Shown here in pieces: positions 4,756 through 40,288 of a stretch of DNA of 47,173 nt (position 1 is the stretch's first letter; the number at the start of each line of letters is the position of its first letter). The stretch is from Elusimicrobiota bacterium. Lineage in GTDB: Bacteria; Elusimicrobiota; Elusimicrobia; Elusimicrobiales; UBA9959. The position numbers and the translations under genes were made by a program. The stretch is from NCBI GenBank assembly GCA_026388125.1, contig JAPLKJ010000259.1, positions 1 through 47,173 on the forward strand. Reading direction: 5' to 3'. The notes under the pieces are model-generated. The model saw nothing but the letters and a program-made list of their open reading frames with translations. It made no database searches and had not been told where the DNA came from.

Positions 4756-5814
4756 ATGGTCACTACAGGTAAAAGATTAATTGTTGTGCTTGGCATGCAT
4801 CGCGGCGGAACCAGCGCCCTGACCCGCGGCCTCAAGGTACTTGGAGTGGAACTGGGCGACAACCTCATGCCCCCTTTTGCCGGCGAGAACGAGACCGGCT
4901 ACTGGGAGGATCTCGATATTTATGCGCTGAACGTCGAGATGCTCGGCGTTATAGGAAGCGATTGGCACTCTCTTTCCCCTATCCAGCGCGACTGCATCGA
5001 AGTTCTGCGTAAAAAAGGCTACCTCCTCCGCGCGGTAGAATTATTGCGCCGAAAGACCGCGGACGCGCCGGTTTTTGGCTTCAAGGATCCGCGCGTGCCG
5101 AAACTTCTGCCGTTCTGGCGCGAGGTGTTTCGCCAATGTCAGTTCGAAGTTAGCTATGTCATAGCCCTGCGTCATCCCGTAAGCGTTGCCAGGTCTCTTA
5201 AGACGCGTGACAAGTTTGACACAGGAAAAAGCCATCTTTTATGGCTGCAGCATACCCTAGCCAGTTTAGCAGGAACCGCCGGCGAGAAGCGCATTTTTAT
5301 TGATTACGACCGCCTGCTGCTATCACCGGCTTTCGAACTGGAGCGGCTCGCGAAACAGCTTGAGCTACAGATCGATCATGCTGAAGCTGAAATCTATACG
5401 AACAAATTCCTTAGCGGCAGTCTGCGTAACTCCCGCTGCGATCTTAACGACTTGCTTTTAGATGACACCTGCCCGCCTATTGTAAGGGAGATATATATCA
5501 AACAGCTGGAGGCGGCGGCGGATAAAATATCGGCTGGTGACCTGTCGCTGCAGAAGAATGTCGATGTCTGGCTGCGGGAATTTGAACGCTTCAACTCACT
5601 TCTGCAACTGGCGGACAGGCTTTTGGCGCAAAATACCAGCGCCGCGCAAGCCGTAGCTGAAAGCAACCTGGGACTTAGCGAGGCCCGCGAGGAATTGCGG
5701 CGCATTTATGCTTCAAGAAAGTGGAAGCTGCTCGTAAGGATCTCAGCGCTCATTTCCAGGGCTAAAACAGGATTGGCCGCTCTCGGGATCCGGGGAAATG
5801 AGCCTCATGTTTAA
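4756..5814 (+). CDS. Sulfotransferase-family protein
   Basis: A 352-residue protein, probably cytoplasmic, of the PAPS-dependent sulfotransferase fold. Near the N-terminus, residues 8-25 read VVLGMHRGGTSALTRGL, the 5'-phosphosulfate loop (GxxRxGTS). Near residue 137 is IALRHPVSVARSL, the 3'-phosphate-binding Arg/Ser motif. Bacterial members next to glycan genes transfer sulfate to sugars of surface polysaccharides, so a sulfated O-chain or capsule is a reasonable inference. The C-terminal 90 residues are charged and may form a coiled coil; they continue past the catalytic fold. Its codon use looks less GC-rich than ettA. It is the first gene of the polysaccharide cluster and runs towards a minus-strand gene 15 bases away. 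Other nucleotide-binding members of this superfamily cannot be excluded. Confidence 0.8.
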   Translation: MVTTGKRLIVVLGMHRGGTSALTRGLKVLGVELGDNLMPPFAGENETGYWEDLDIYALNVEMLGVIGSDWHSLSPIQRDCIEVLRKKGYLLRAVELLRRKTADAPVFGFKDPRVPKLLPFWREVFRQCQFEVSYVIALRHPVSVARSLKTRDKFDTGKSHLLWLQHTLASLAGTAGEKRIFIDYDRLLLSPAFELERLAKQLELQIDHAEAEIYTNKFLSGSLRNSRCDLNDLLLDDTCPPIVREIYIKQLEAAADKISAGDLSLQKNVDVWLREFERFNSLLQLADRLLAQNTSAAQAVAESNLGLSEAREELRRIYASRKWKLLVRISALISRAKTGLAALGIRGNEPHV

Positions 5815-31906: not shown

Positions 31907-32038
31907 AGGGGCCAGCCCCTGGTCGGGCCCGGCGGGCGCGGGGTCGGCCACACCGTGGCCGACCCTCATCACTCGGGCGGCGCGCTTATGCAAGCGCCGC
32001 CCTCCGCGAAGGCCTGCCGAACCCGATCAGGGGTTGGC
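31907..32038. promoter_or_regulatory. Four successive hairpins in the nifU-nifS spacer
   Basis: H1: AGGGGC/GCCCCT at 31907-31920. H2: GGGTCGGCCAC/GTGGCCGACCC at 31941-31965, a perfect 11-bp stem with a 3-base loop. H3: 31975-32002, a GGGCGGCGC..GCGCCGCCC type stem with an AAGC/GCTT core. H4: GCCGAACCC/GGGGTTGGC at 32016-32038 with one mismatch. None has a T-run, so they are not terminators. They may stabilise or process the mRNA, or set the nifU:nifS ratio. A structured RNA or a REP-like cluster is possible. Confidence 0.6.
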
Positions 32039-32063
32039 CCGGCCGAAGGGCGAAGAGGACAAT

Positions 32064-33266
32064 ATGGAAAAAGTATATTATTTCGACAATAACGCCACCA
32101 GCCGCGTGGCGCCCGAAGTGGCCAAAGAGATGGAGCCGTTCTTCAACGAGCTCTACGGCAACCCCTCCAGCATGCACTTCTTCGGCGGCGGCAACCAGAA
32201 ATACATGGACCTGGCCCGTCAGCGCGTGGCGAACCTGCTGGGCGCTACCCCCGAGGAAATAGTTTTCACCAGCTGCGGCACCGAATCCGACTCCACCGCC
32301 ATCTGGTCGACCATCCAGTCCTACCCCGAGAAAAACCATTTCATCACCACCAAGGTCGAGCATCCCGCCGTGCTCAACCTGGCCAAACACCTGGAGGCGA
32401 AGGGCTACCGCGTTACCTACCTGCCGGTGGACACCACCGGGCAGATCAACCTCGACGACCTCAAGACCGCGCTGACCCCCGACACCGCGCTGGTCTCCAT
32501 CATGTGGGCCAATAACGAGACCGGCGTTATCTTCCCCGTGGAAGAAGCCGCCCGCATAGCGCACGCCAAAGGCGCGCTGTTCCACACCGACGCCGTGCAG
32601 GCCGTAGGCAAAGTTCCCATCAACCTCAAAGAAACCAGGATCGACCTGCTCTCCCTGTCCGGCCACAAGCTGCACGCCCCAAAAGGCATAGGCGCCCTGT
32701 ACATCCGCAAGGGCGTCCGCTTCTCGCCGTTCATGCTGGGCGGCCACCAGGAACACGGCCGCCGCGCCGGCACCGAGAACGTGCCGTACATCGCCGGGCT
32801 GGGCAAAGCGGCGGAGCTGGCCGCCGCCAACCTGGAAAAAGAGAACACCTATGTGCGTGAGTTGCGCGACCGCCTCGAGACCGGGCTGCTCGCCATAAAG
32901 AATTCACGCGTCAACGGCGGCGGCGCCGCGCGCCTGCCCAACACCACCAATATCAGCTTCGAGTACATAGAGGGCGAATCCATACTGCTGATGATCAGCG
33001 AAAAAGGCATCTGCGCCTCTTCCGGCTCGGCCTGCACGTCGGGCTCGCTGGAGCCGTCGCACGTGCTGATGTCCATGGCCGTGCCGCAGACCTACGCGCA
33101 CGGCTCGGTGCGCTTCTCGCTGAGCGTCTACAACACGCGGGAAGAGGTGGATTACCTGCTGAAAGAATTCCCGCCGGTAATAGAGCGCCTGCGCGCCATT
33201 TCGCCGTTCGCCGACGGCAAGCCGCTGTTCGGCATGGACGCCTGCGAACCGCACCACCAGCATTAG
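32064..33266 (+). CDS. nifS: Cysteine desulfurase NifS
   Basis: A 400-residue PLP enzyme that removes sulfur from cysteine for Fe-S assembly on NifU. The start MEKVYYFDNNATSRVAPEV is preceded by AGAGGA; a TTG further up would add ten residues and is less likely. The PLP lysine sits in SLSGHKLHAPKGIGALY, HTDAVQAVGK is intact, and the active-site cysteine is in SSGSACTSGSLEPSHVL (group I NifS/IscS long loop). GGHQEHGRRAGTENV is also conserved. With nifU it forms the Fe-S assembly operon. Confidence 0.96.
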   Translation: MEKVYYFDNNATSRVAPEVAKEMEPFFNELYGNPSSMHFFGGGNQKYMDLARQRVANLLGATPEEIVFTSCGTESDSTAIWSTIQSYPEKNHFITTKVEHPAVLNLAKHLEAKGYRVTYLPVDTTGQINLDDLKTALTPDTALVSIMWANNETGVIFPVEEAARIAHAKGALFHTDAVQAVGKVPINLKETRIDLLSLSGHKLHAPKGIGALYIRKGVRFSPFMLGGHQEHGRRAGTENVPYIAGLGKAAELAAANLEKENTYVRELRDRLETGLLAIKNSRVNGGGAARLPNTTNISFEYIEGESILLMISEKGICASSGSACTSGSLEPSHVLMSMAVPQTYAHGSVRFSLSVYNTREEVDYLLKEFPPVIERLRAISPFADGKPLFGMDACEPHHQH

Positions 33267-36762: not shown

Positions 36763-37824
36763 TTACTGCCGGGCGAATTGCGTGGCCTTGCCTTCGTGAA
36801 AGGTGTACGTGGCTTTCAGCGCGCCGCCGTCGTCGTACTGGCGCAGCGCTTTTACTTCGTTCTGCTTGAAGAGCATTTCTTTCTGCAGCTTGCCGTCCCT
36901 GCCGTAAACTTTGGCCGTGCCGTCGGGAACGGTGCCGTCCTGGCCGATAACGTTGAACTCCGTGTCCAGGCGGACCTTGCCGATGTACTTGGCGTTGAGC
37001 TTGAAGGAGATTATTTCGCCGCGCGCCACTTTGGCCGTCCTGCCGGTTACCAGGGAGTCCTGCTCCTGCGCCCGGGCGGCGGGCGCCGCCTCGGGTTTGG
37101 GCGGGTCGGTTACCCGGTCGTCCTCGTAGTAAGTCTCGTTCTTCAGCGCGCCGTCCGGGCCGTACTCCCTCTTCCAGCCGTTGAGCCGGTCGTTCTTGTA
37201 GGCGGCTTCCATCAGCGGCTTGCCGTTCTCGCCGAAATATTTAAAATCCCCGTCCTTGGCCCCGTCGAAATAATAAGCCTCCAGCTGCGGCACGCCAGCC
37301 GGGTAATAAGCCTTCAGCGAACCGCTCATTTTTCCGCCCAGCACGGTCTTTACCGTTTTCAGGCTTCCGTCCGCGTAATATTCGGAGTAAGTGCCGTTCT
37401 TGATGGCGCCTTCAAGCGAAACCGGGGAGCCGGCCGCGTCGAAGGTTTCGGTGGCTATGGCCACGCCGCCCTCGAAGTATACCAGCCGGCGGGTTCCGCC
37501 TTCCGGCAGCATGGTGGAAAAAGTGAGCTGCGCCCTGGCTTCCGGCTGTTCGGGTGCGGCGGCGGGCGTTTCGGCCGCGGCGGTGGAGACCGGCGCCTCG
37601 AGGCCGGCCTCGGGCTGCGCGGGAACTGCCGGGGCGGCCTGCCGCTGCGCTATGTCGGCCTTGTCAATGGTGAGCGAGCCGTACCGGGTCTTGATGAGCA
37701 GGGCCTGGTCCATCTCGCCGGTCAATTCGCCGTCTATCTTTGTTCCGTCCTTGAGCAGGAACGTCTCGGCCCGGCAGACCGCGGCGGCAAGCAGCAGAAA
37801 GAAAAAGAAAATAGCTGGTTTCAT
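36763..37824 (-). CDS. Secreted MORN-like (YwqK-type) repeat protein
   Basis: A 353-residue protein with a signal peptide (MKPAIFFFFLLLAAAVCRA). The start follows GGGAGA on the minus strand, and a longer in-frame reading enters the divergent promoter. Residues 20-50 (TFLLKDGTKIDGELTGEMDQALLIKTRYGSLTIDKADI) look like an SH3-like cap found in such proteins. An Ala/Pro/Glu-rich linker follows. From about residue 130 there are six or more short repeats of the MORN_2 kind (GTYSEYYADGSLK, AYYPAGVPQLEAYYFDG, YGPDGALKNETYY). These form an extended beta-surface and are common in envelope proteins. The specific role is unknown. Confidence 0.8.
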   Translation of the reverse strand: MKPAIFFFFLLLAAAVCRAETFLLKDGTKIDGELTGEMDQALLIKTRYGSLTIDKADIAQRQAAPAVPAQPEAGLEAPVSTAAAETPAAAPEQPEARAQLTFSTMLPEGGTRRLVYFEGGVAIATETFDAAGSPVSLEGAIKNGTYSEYYADGSLKTVKTVLGGKMSGSLKAYYPAGVPQLEAYYFDGAKDGDFKYFGENGKPLMEAAYKNDRLNGWKREYGPDGALKNETYYEDDRVTDPPKPEAAPAARAQEQDSLVTGRTAKVARGEIISFKLNAKYIGKVRLDTEFNVIGQDGTVPDGTAKVYGRDGKLQKEMLFKQNEVKALRQYDDGGALKATYTFHEGKATQFARQ

Positions 37825-37909
37825 AAAGAGTCTCCCATTCGGAATGATTATTCTACAAAAAAGGCGGGGCCGGAAACAGCGGCCCGGCCCGGGGCCGCAT
37901 AAAACATCC

Positions 37910-37940
37910 TTGACATAATGATACTTATATGGTATCATTA
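37910..37940 (+). promoter_or_regulatory. Rrf2 gene promoter with embedded 9-bp palindromic operator
   Basis: -35 TTGACA at 37910-37915 and -10 TATCAT at 37933-37938 have a 17-base spacer. Within this, TAATGATAC (37916-37924) and GTATCATTA (37932-37940) form a perfect inverted repeat around TTATATG. A dimeric repressor bound there would cover the -10 box and block the promoter. The predicted transcription start is about 37945, three bases before the ATG. Confidence 0.75.
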
Positions 37941-37947
37941 AAGTATT

Positions 37948-38343
37948 ATGAAATTACTCAACAGGGAAGTTGATTATGCCGTCCGCGCCATGGTACTGAT
38001 GACGAGGGCCAACAAACCGACGGTTTCGGTGGCGCAGATGCAGGAAGGAGTGGGGGTGAACCGGCCTTTCCTGCGCAAAATACTGCAGAAACTGCATAAA
38101 GCCGGGCTGCTGCAGGCCTCCAAAGGCAAGGGCGGCGGGTTTTCGGCCGCGAAAGCGCCTGAGAACATACGCCTGTCCGACCTGATAGCCGCGCTGCAGG
38201 GGCCGGTGAAGCTTAACGACTGTTTCTTCCGGAAGAAACTGTGCCGCAACCACGGCACCTGCCTGCTGCGCCGCAGGATAGGCGAAGTTGAAGCCCGCCT
38301 GGCGGAGGAAATGGAAAGGATAACGCTGCGGGACCTGGTCTGA
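37948..38343 (+). CDS. Rrf2-family transcription regulator with three-cysteine Fe-S site
   Basis: A 131-residue Rrf2/IscR-type regulator. The N-terminal winged helix has MKLLNREVDYAVRAMVLM and the recognition part NRPFLRKILQKLHKAGLL, followed by the wing SKGKGGGFSAAKAPENIRL. Cysteines 92, 99 and 105 (C-x6-C-x5-C) match the cluster ligands of IscR and NsrR. It should sense Fe-S status, oxygen or NO through a cluster. The palindrome inside its own promoter is probably its binding site. The following ferredoxin-like gene, 21 bases downstream, is the likely co-regulated target. There is no Shine-Dalgarno sequence. Confidence 0.9.
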   Translation: MKLLNREVDYAVRAMVLMTRANKPTVSVAQMQEGVGVNRPFLRKILQKLHKAGLLQASKGKGGGFSAAKAPENIRLSDLIAALQGPVKLNDCFFRKKLCRNHGTCLLRRRIGEVEARLAEEMERITLRDLV

Positions 38344-38364
38344 CCCGGTCCATGTAAGGAACAT

Positions 38365-39207
38365 ATGAAGACAAAACGGCAGATAATAAAAATCGATCAG
38401 GAAAAATGCGACGGCTGCGGCAACTGCGTGACCGGCTGCCACGAGGGCGCGCTGCAGGTTATAGACGGTACGGCGCGCCTGATCAGCGACCTGCTGTGCG
38501 ACGGCCTGGGCGCCTGCATCGGCGAGTGCCCGCGCGGCGCGATAAAGATAGAGGAGCGGGAAGCCGTTCCCTACGACGAAATAAAAGTTATGGAAGGTAT
38601 GGTCGAACAGGGCCCCAACACCATAAAAGCCCACCTGCAGCACCTCAGGGACCACGCGCAGAAAGCGTTCCTGGAACAGGCCCTCGGCTATTTAAAAAAT
38701 AACGGCATCCCGAACCCGATGGAGGAAGAGATGAAAAAAGAACACGAACCCTGCGGCTGCCCCGGCGGCCGTATGATGGACCTGCGGGAAACCGCGGCAG
38801 AGGACGGCGATTCGCCCGCCGCCAGGTCGCGCCTGCGCCAGTGGCCGGTGCAGTTGCACCTGGCCTCGCCCCTGGCGCCGTATTTCCAGAAGGCGGACGT
38901 GGTGGTGGCGGCCGACTGCACCGCTTTCGCCTACGGGAACTTCCATGAAGAGTTCATAAAAGGCAAAGCCATCGTGATCGCCTGCCCGAAGCTCGACGAC
39001 GGTCAGGAACTGTACCTGGAAAAACTACAGGCCCTGATAGAGGACGCGAAGATCAACACGTTGACCGTGGTGACCATGGAAGTGCCCTGCTGCGGCGGCC
39101 TGCTGGCGCTGGTCAAGCGCGCGCTGGAAGCCTCTGAACGCAAAGTGCCGGTAAAGTACGTGGTGATAGGCATAGGCGGGGCGATAAAGAGCGAAGACTG
39201 GGTATGA
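38365..39207 (+). CDS. Ferredoxin-domain iron-sulfur protein in the Rrf2 operon
   Basis: A 280-residue cytoplasmic protein. Residues 9-60 form a ferredoxin-type domain: the first site CDGCGNCVTGC is complete, while the second, CDGLGACIGECP, has Leu where one Cys is expected and may hold no cluster or an altered one. The remaining 200 residues include a CGCPGG motif near 130, HLASPLAPYFQKADVVVAADCTAFAYGNFH, IVIACPKLDD and MEVPCCGGL. This C-terminal part recurs in anaerobes next to Rrf2 regulators and hybrid-cluster-protein genes. A role in redox or nitrosative-stress handling is plausible but not shown. Its ribosome-binding site is TAAGGA. Confidence 0.8.
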   Translation: MKTKRQIIKIDQEKCDGCGNCVTGCHEGALQVIDGTARLISDLLCDGLGACIGECPRGAIKIEEREAVPYDEIKVMEGMVEQGPNTIKAHLQHLRDHAQKAFLEQALGYLKNNGIPNPMEEEMKKEHEPCGCPGGRMMDLRETAAEDGDSPAARSRLRQWPVQLHLASPLAPYFQKADVVVAADCTAFAYGNFHEEFIKGKAIVIACPKLDDGQELYLEKLQALIEDAKINTLTVVTMEVPCCGGLLALVKRALEASERKVPVKYVVIGIGGAIKSEDWV

Positions 39208-39250
39208 GGAAATGACTTGAACGGCGGCCGGCATTTTTTCGCAAATATAC

Positions 39251-39256
39251 TATAAT
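39251..39256 (+). promoter_or_regulatory. -10 box of the ChaN-like gene, leaderless layout
   Basis: TATAAT at 39251-39256 is six bases from the ATG at 39263, so the predicted start point is the A of the ATG. No ribosome-binding site exists in the six bases. A -35 match at normal spacing is not seen. Confidence 0.5.
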
Positions 39257-39262
39257 GAGTTC

Positions 39263-40288
39263 ATGAAAATATGCGCGCTGCTGGCTCTTTTCCTGCTCCC
39301 TTCCGCCATGGCGGCCAAGCCCGCGGCCAGGCACGCCGCCGCCCCGGCTAAGCCGGTCGCGCCCGCGGTCAAAGCCGCCGCGCCCCCGTCCGGTTTCTGC
39401 ATTTTCGGCGCCCAGTCAGGCAAGCCTTTCGACAGCGAAGCGGCTTTTAACTCCGTTATCTGGAAAAGCGACGTGGTGTACGTGGGCGAAACGCACGACG
39501 AGGCGCTGGACCACCTGGCGCAGCTGGAGGCCCTGAAAGCCATGCGCATAGCGCGCGGCAGCAGAATAGTAGTGGCTTTCGAGATGCTCAACCAGACCCT
39601 TCAGCCGGTGCTGGACGATTACGCGGCCGGCAAGCTCACCGAGGCGGAGTTCCTCGATAAAATAGACTGGAAAAAAGAATGGGGCTTCGACTTCGCCCTG
39701 TACAAGCCGCTCTTCGATTTTATTGTCGCCAATAAGCTGCGCGCGCTGGCGCTGAACGTGCCCAAATCGGTGGTGATGAAGATAGCCCGCAGCGGCCTGG
39801 AAAGCCTGACGGCCGAAGAAAAACAGTTCCTGCCTGAACCCGTGACTATCTCGGCGCACAAGAAATACAACGAATTCCTCAAGGAGTCGTTCTCCGCCCA
39901 CGGCGACTCCCCGATGGCCAAGCTGTTCACTTTCGAGAATTACCTGGCGTCCATGGCCGCCTGGAACGAGGGCATGGGCCTGCGCCTGGCCGGCTTCATA
40001 ACCGCCAACCCGGGCTATTCGGCGCTGGTGATAGCCGGCAACGGCCACGTGGTTTACAACGCGGCCATCCCCGCCTCCGTTAAAGAGCGCGTAAAGGGCG
40101 TGCGGCAGGCCTCGTTCTATACCGAAACCGCGGCGAGCTGCCCGGGAAAATTCCCCAAAGAGCATAAGGATATGGCGAACTATATCTGGTATCTGAACCA
40201 CCCGCCCAAGCCGGCGCCCGCCGTACCGGCGGCCGGCAGCACGGCCGCGCCTGCCGCGCTGCCCGCGGAAGTTCCCGAGCAGAAGTAA
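39263..40288 (+). CDS. ChaN-like (DUF399) lipoprotein-type haem/iron-binding protein
   Basis: A 341-residue exported protein with a signal sequence (MKICALLALFLLPSAMA) and then an Ala/Pro-rich linker. The ChaN core begins near residue 48: SDVVYVGETHDEALDHLAQLEALKAM, VVAFEMLNQTLQPVLDDYAAGKLTE, DWKKEWGFDFALYKPLFDFIV, and VIAGNGHVVYNAAIPASVKERV. GETHD and the late GNGHV are family hallmarks; ChaN of Campylobacter binds haem and aids iron uptake. No Cys lipobox is evident, so it may be soluble periplasmic. A Pro/Ala-rich tail closes the protein. The metabolic role here is unproven. Confidence 0.82.
   Translation: MKICALLALFLLPSAMAAKPAARHAAAPAKPVAPAVKAAAPPSGFCIFGAQSGKPFDSEAAFNSVIWKSDVVYVGETHDEALDHLAQLEALKAMRIARGSRIVVAFEMLNQTLQPVLDDYAAGKLTEAEFLDKIDWKKEWGFDFALYKPLFDFIVANKLRALALNVPKSVVMKIARSGLESLTAEEKQFLPEPVTISAHKKYNEFLKESFSAHGDSPMAKLFTFENYLASMAAWNEGMGLRLAGFITANPGYSALVIAGNGHVVYNAAIPASVKERVKGVRQASFYTETAASCPGKFPKEHKDMANYIWYLNHPPKPAPAVPAAGSTAAPAALPAEVPEQK

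Follow-up and report, generated by a model that had tools for sequence, protein, structure and literature searches.

What is the role of a perfect palindrome that lies between the -35 and -10 elements of a small regulator gene in an Elusimicrobiota bacterium? We investigated this question in the window, that is, the whole 47,173-nucleotide stretch of contig JAPLKJ010000259.1 (assembly GCA_026388125.1). A preliminary description had placed a 9-bp palindrome with an N7 centre in the promoter spacer and over the -10 element, and had offered it as a concrete predicted operator for the downstream Rrf2 gene, whose product carries three cysteines (C92, C99, and C105), might represent an uncharacterised Rrf2 subfamily, and has a ferredoxin-like partner. 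Absence of the palindrome upstream of orthologues was to refute this reading, and searches for the motif genome-wide and at homologous loci were proposed. The coordinates bear out the described arrangement (Table 1): TAATGATAC-N7-GTATCATTA (37916-37940, TAATGATAC TTATATG GTATCATTA) occupies the 17-nt spacer of TTGACA-17-TATCAT (37910-37938), and the -10 hexamer falls in the right arm. A simple promoter scan returned this promoter, with 11 of 12 matches, as the sole promoter-like site in 37700-39400. The rrf2 ATG (37948) follows 7 nt after the end of the palindrome and 9 nt after the -10 hexamer. Since transcription usually starts 6-8 nt past the -10, the rrf2 mRNA is probably leaderless or nearly so.

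Table 1. Features of the rrf2-frdX locus in the window.
Feature	Position	Strand	Basis
-35 hexamer TTGACA	37910-37915	+	promoter scan; TT kept in 27/27 orthologous promoters
Operator candidate, perfect 9+9 palindrome with 7-base centre	37916-37940	.	conservation and pattern searches
Left operator arm	37916-37924
Operator centre	37925-37931
Right operator arm	37932-37940
Conserved 23-bp core, AATGATAC-N7-GTATCATT	37917-37939
-10 hexamer TATCAT, within right arm	37933-37938	+	promoter scan, orthologue comparison
rrf2, NsrR-like Rrf2 regulator, 131 aa	37948-38343	+	Pfam/NCBIfam profiles, alignment
frdX-type gene, 280 aa, ferredoxin-like N-terminus and conserved C-terminal domain	38365-39207	+	profiles, conservation
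Divergent MORN-repeat gene	36763-37824	-
Cysteine desulfurase gene	32034-33266

Chance was considered as the origin of the palindrome and ruled out. With up to three mismatches allowed, its 18-base pattern occurs once in the window and in none of 100 dinucleotide shuffles, and the proposed genome-wide search found a single site in the organism's own 3.47-Mb genome; a reversed control across phyla and the orthologous promoters, both described below, also speak against chance. An Rrf2 search of 294 genomes of the phylum gave a match at 1e-8 in 117, all Rrf2 kinds counted; the sequences of the 30 best loci (L004-L033) were then read in a common orientation. Every one of the 27 genus and family promoters (L004-L030) contains the core AATGATAC-N7-GTATCATT, always in the same register relative to the -35 TT, so that the result that was to refute the operator reading did not arise. 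These 27 sites have no mismatch in 18 cases, one in seven, two in one (G110), and three in one (G208). In every one of them the site ends 5-10 nt from the rrf2 ATG, hence leaderless mRNAs are likely at these promoters too. Conservation per position is 1.5-2.0 bits for the left arm, 1.3-2.0 for the right, and 0.1 to 1.4 for the centre, where it peaks next to the right arm, just before the -10. The right arm doubles as the -10 element whereas the left arm has no promoter role, so promoter function does not account for how well the left arm is kept. At the more distant loci, L032 carries CTAATAC-N7-GTATTAG, L033 an imperfect form of it, and L031 neither.

Two profiles assign the gene product to the Rrf2 superfamily (PF02082, E 4.5e-30, 104.9 bits against a cut-off of 30; TIGR00738, 95.8 bits against 73.3). 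Its scores for the NCBIfam equivalogs listed for it all fell below the cut-offs: NsrR (NF008240), 59.5 against 182 bits; IscR (TIGR02010), 61.3 against 207.55; RirA, 52.9 against 193; SUF regulator, 73.1 against 110.65; HypR, 40.3 against 180; and CymR, 35.5 against 195. By fold, CymR, IscR (Z 15.4), and RsrR are the closest solved structures and stand above NsrR; structure comparison did not favor NsrR over any of these three. The three cysteines are spaced C-X6-C-X5-C and, together with D9, align with the cluster ligands reported for Streptomyces coelicolor NsrR (ScNsrR), Asp8, Cys93, Cys99, and Cys105 (PMC5411485). From this alignment, C92, C99, C105, and D9 are predicted to be the cluster ligands, with R13 as the partner of D9. 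In a tree of 74 Rrf2 rows, built on 130 columns, which are few for so many rows, 47 rows of the same type as the window protein (window-type) form a starred clade (98/85), joined by L182 and L237 at 93/72. Outside this branch lie E. coli NsrR, E. coli IscR, and a second three-Cys Rrf2 type (ISEAA start, C-X6-C-X4-C), which is found at frdX/hcp in Bacteroidota and many Elusimicrobia. Among the 49 window-type rows, D9, C99, and C105 are invariant, C92 is kept in 48 (His in L176_0), and R13 in 46 (absent from L168, L183, and L199). The cysteines of the preliminary description are thus a conserved trait, and the scores below every listed equivalog cut-off, together with the supported branch that leaves E. 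coli NsrR and IscR outside, agree with its suggestion of an uncharacterised subfamily. A search of titles and abstract openings in the open PMC literature found no description of the window-type Rrf2 or its motif.

Downstream of rrf2, and presumably in one operon with it, lies the partner gene, whose N-terminus carries 4Fe-4S ferredoxin motifs. We call it frdX-type, after the FrdX proteins named in Desulfovibrio and C. difficile, on the strength of its context and description. The ferredoxin-like partner proved real and conserved: 24 of the 30 best phylum loci have an frdX-type gene after rrf2 (missing from L011, L013, which meets a contig end, L029, L031, L032, and L033), and the window's own genome holds one full-length copy plus three short ferredoxin-level matches elsewhere. 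Its C-terminal domain, for which fold matches were middling (best Z 7.4), contains invariant C207, C242, and C243 in addition to the ferredoxin cysteines.

The same arrangement recurs outside the phylum. A scan of named genomes with the FrdX alignment yielded 495 loci, of which the best 80 were analyzed. Among these best 80 of 495, a window-type Rrf2 gene lies up to 700 nt upstream of frdX in 20 loci: 3 from Elusimicrobia, 11 from Omnitrophota (including L167, Ca. Aceula), 4 from Chlorobiota, and 1 each from Auribacterota and Aminicenantes. The site stands upstream of rrf2 with up to three mismatches in 18 of these 20 loci (all but L176 and L182), and in 15 of the 17 outside Elusimicrobia. The best 80 of 495 loci, 862,545 bases in all, contain 18 sites with up to two mismatches, versus 0 for the reversed control; 16 are directly upstream of rrf2-frdX, one is a second site in L183, between rrf2 and frdX, and one (L235) is elsewhere. 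Still within the best 80 of 495 loci, hcp comes next after rrf2-frdX in 14 of the 17 loci outside Elusimicrobia, so that the operon position next to hcp that marks frdX was found in these relatives; it was not found in the window's genome, where no hcp was detected. A short reading frame with Cys residues, MLRPxAHCxEGCS..., separates the operator from rrf2 in two Omnitrophota loci (L256, about 1525-1700, and L184, about 5460-5580). The reading of the palindrome as a concrete operator of the Rrf2 gene is therefore supported both by all 27 orthologous promoters and by 18 of 20 rrf2-frdX pairs from several phyla (≤3 mismatches, best 80 of 495 loci). The link to hcp and nitrosative stress and the spread over phyla go beyond the preliminary description.

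Further sites in the family enlarge the set of candidate targets. G030 has a perfect site between hcp and a DUF438-hemerythrin-PAS gene, and in G211 and G215 a site separates a ResB gene from an Rrf2-hcp operon, with a NapC/NirT-type cytochrome gene after the ResB gene in G211. The functions of hcp, DUF438-hemerythrin, and the ResB/NapC-type cytochromes fit nitrosative stress. No such site was present upstream of hcp in 28 of the 30 family hcp loci examined (the G030 hcp is outside those 30), and most family genomes that possess hcp have it beside another Rrf2 type. The second Rrf2 type was seen just upstream of hcp (L108-L137) or of frdX (for example in Bacteroidota L190, L217, and L221). Searches of the window's genome gave one flavodiiron-type match, no hcp, and no hemerythrin match, hence the link to NO in this genome comes through its relatives only. 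As hcp was not found there, this genome has seemingly reduced the regulon to rrf2-frdX. The only other site with up to two mismatches in this genome (G000:C214:2436-2458, L068) was rejected as an extra target because such matches are at chance level (81 versus 26 for the reversed control, see below). That 2-mismatch site lies between two divergent response-regulator genes and is shared with the near sister G269 (L069). Sites in coding regions (L074, L083, and L104) were also taken as chance.

Given its recurrence at this gene pair in other phyla, the palindrome very probably acts as the switch through which the Rrf2 regulator controls its own nitrosative-stress operon. In its full form, our preferred reading, which we consider probable, is that the palindrome would be the operator of an NsrR-like Fe-S autorepressor of the FrdX/Hcp operon and that NO would lift the repression. 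An Rrf2 homodimer would hold an Fe-S cluster through C92, C99, and C105, with D9 of the other subunit as the fourth ligand, and would sit on the 23-bp site with one subunit per AATGATAC arm. Since the site takes up the spacer and extends over the -10, the bound dimer would exclude RNA polymerase from the rrf2-frdX promoter (negative autoregulation). Autoregulation, as known for the family, is also a point of likeness with IscR. NO or a related reactive nitrogen species would damage the cluster, and the dimer would release the DNA. Release would allow production of rrf2-frdX plus, where present, hcp, the DUF438-hemerythrin protein, and the ResB/NapC-type cytochrome operon. FrdX would then probably serve as the electron carrier to Hcp or another NO-removing enzyme. 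A connection of FrdX, Hcp, and NO is described in other bacteria (PMC12915319, PMC1274295, and PMC5701242).

The protein resembles NsrR of S. coelicolor and E. coli in its Rrf2 fold, its Asp and three Cys ligands with an Arg four residues past the Asp, its predicted role at NO-defence genes including hcp, and its 23-bp operator of two 8-bp arms around 7 bp (8-7-8, as for ScNsrR). The centre of the ScNsrR operator was reported not to be a key determinant in EMSA probes (PMC9338935). By contrast, the window type has C-X6-C where NsrR has C-X5-C, its target is frdX(-hcp), E. coli NsrR is outside its branch, and its operator AATGATAC matches the consensus gATGyAT-N5-ATrCATc at only 1 of 14 positions. 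As both the equivalog cut-off and the operator consensus fail, we did not file the protein as NsrR. HcpR, a regulator of the CRP/FNR family, has the same targets, an frdX-type ferredoxin and hcp, but is unrelated in protein family and in operator, its sites being wTGTGAnnnnnnTCACAw and variants (PMC1274295). In C. difficile, frdX and hcp are reported as NO-induced, required for NO resistance, and under HcpR, which acts there as an activator (PMC12915319), whereas the position of the site here suggests repression. On the best reading of the alignments and sites, the window-type regulator would work like NsrR with an operator code of its own.

Three-Cys Rrf2 proteins sense several signals, and it is conceivable, if rather unlikely, that the operator and the autoregulation are as proposed while the protein responds to iron, redox, or Fe-S status, as in regulators like IscR, RirA, or RsrR, with FrdX carrying electrons in stress generally. 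The closer fold matches to CymR, IscR, and RsrR, the lack of hcp in the window's genome, and the cysteine desulfurase gene in the window would suit such a signal. However, D9 with R13 and the three cysteines is the ligand set of NsrR, and E. coli IscR, which shares the Rrf2 fold and the three Cys, is without an Asp at position 9. The frequent neighborhood of hcp outside Elusimicrobia also argues for nitrosative stress, as do the additional targets (hcp, hemerythrin, and the cytochrome operon), which are not those of Fe-S assembly or iron uptake. Fe-S assembly genes were not seen with the window-type sites, a further difference from IscR, and no listed site lies at the desulfurase of the window.

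Whether the site belongs to this regulator at all was judged from its distribution. The site search covered 59 family genomes; 13 without a protein search were excluded, leaving 46. A site with up to one mismatch is present in 30 of the 32 genomes with a window-type Rrf2 versus 1 of the 14 without, the line for window type (E below about 1e-18) having been drawn after the list was seen (Fisher p about 1e-8, with relatedness of the genomes ignored). The two exceptions, G110 and G208, have sites with two and three mismatches at rrf2, and the lone positive of the 14, G028, has its site in a transporter operon (L296), probably by chance. With up to two mismatches allowed, a single match is weak evidence: the 59 genomes gave 81 such matches versus 26 for the reversed control. 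G028 retains frdX and has no regulator, and of its operator only the left arm survives (6 mismatches). The regulator is also absent from G080, where frdX stands without an operator (7 mismatches). In G213 (L162) a remnant of rrf2 of ~13 codons lies between a kept operator (1 mismatch) and frdX, and another window-type rrf2 lies under its own 1-mismatch site (L029). G232 has an rrf2 site with 11-bp arms and no frdX match in the genome. These natural losses are consistent with the site following the regulator.

This distribution makes it very unlikely that the palindrome serves a different regulator, one acting on the neighboring rrf2. Such an arrangement could be entertained since binding of the palindrome by the Rrf2 protein is itself inferred, and since in G211 and G215 the site also precedes an operon of another Rrf2 type. 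Against it, the site tracks the window-type Rrf2, its geometry is that of an Rrf2 operator, the second Rrf2 type has the site in just 2 of its 20 tree rows (both from G211/G215), and only one Rrf2 in the window's genome exceeds the Pfam cut-off (the next match scores 21 bits). Finally, it is highly improbable that the symmetry arises from a bidirectional promoter that also serves the divergent MORN-repeat gene, an idea prompted by the TATCAT that the left arm contains on the minus strand: the promoter scan found no minus-strand promoter there, the left arm is conserved throughout the 27 family promoters, other phyla have the site too, and in G028 and G080 it was lost with the regulator even though frdX remains.

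Upon closer inspection of the window-type branch, 39 of the 49 rows have a site with up to three mismatches within about 220 bp. Ten do not: L031, L032, L033, L094, L107, L166, two L176 proteins, L182, and L237. Five of these (L032, L033, L107, L166, and L176_7) have CTAATAC-N7-GTRTTAG-like sites at the same place in the promoter, and two (L182 and L237) have TAGGAC-N7-GTCTTA. The remaining three (L031, L176_0, and L094) have no site at the adjacent promoter; L094 has a perfect one about 1.5 kb off, at hcp. We aligned residue 59 with wing Arg60 of ScNsrR, which is reported to make the most DNA contacts, at the operator ends (PMC9338935). Nine rows, all with C or T at arm position 2, have an acidic residue 59 (E or D); this residue is M in L182 and L237 and K or R in the other rows. 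The nine rows form one clade and hence one event, so a partial coupling of the outer operator bases to wing residue 59 is only suggestive.

A different placement of the site was noted in 8 of 32 genus genomes (30 loci fetched, 22 readable by pattern), where it lies, with 0-1 mismatch, 13-16 nt upstream of the -35 before a gene for a 111-aa protein that has no Pfam match and adjoins pyruvate kinase (L070, L071, L073, L075, L077, L079, L080, and L081). Owing to this distance upstream of the -35, the place would suit activation rather than repression. A broader reading, possible but doubtful, would join these observations: a distinct cross-phylum Rrf2 nitrosative-stress regulator may replace HcpR/NsrR in Elusimicrobiota, Omnitrophota, Auribacterota, and Chlorobiota, may have its own operator code (an AC-N7-GT core, with outer bases set partly by wing residue 59), and may in one Elusimicrobia subclade have a second, activating mode at the promoter adjoining pyruvate kinase. 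If this were so, one protein would repress a stress operon and activate a glycolytic one. The paired variation of operator arms and wing/recognition-helix residues across phyla would make an Rrf2 DNA code directly testable. Under the preferred reading, frdX/hcp would come under a kind of regulator additional to HcpR and NsrR, and phyla in which cultured members are few or lacking would have a regulator, operator, operon, and signal for nitrosative stress that can be put to the test.
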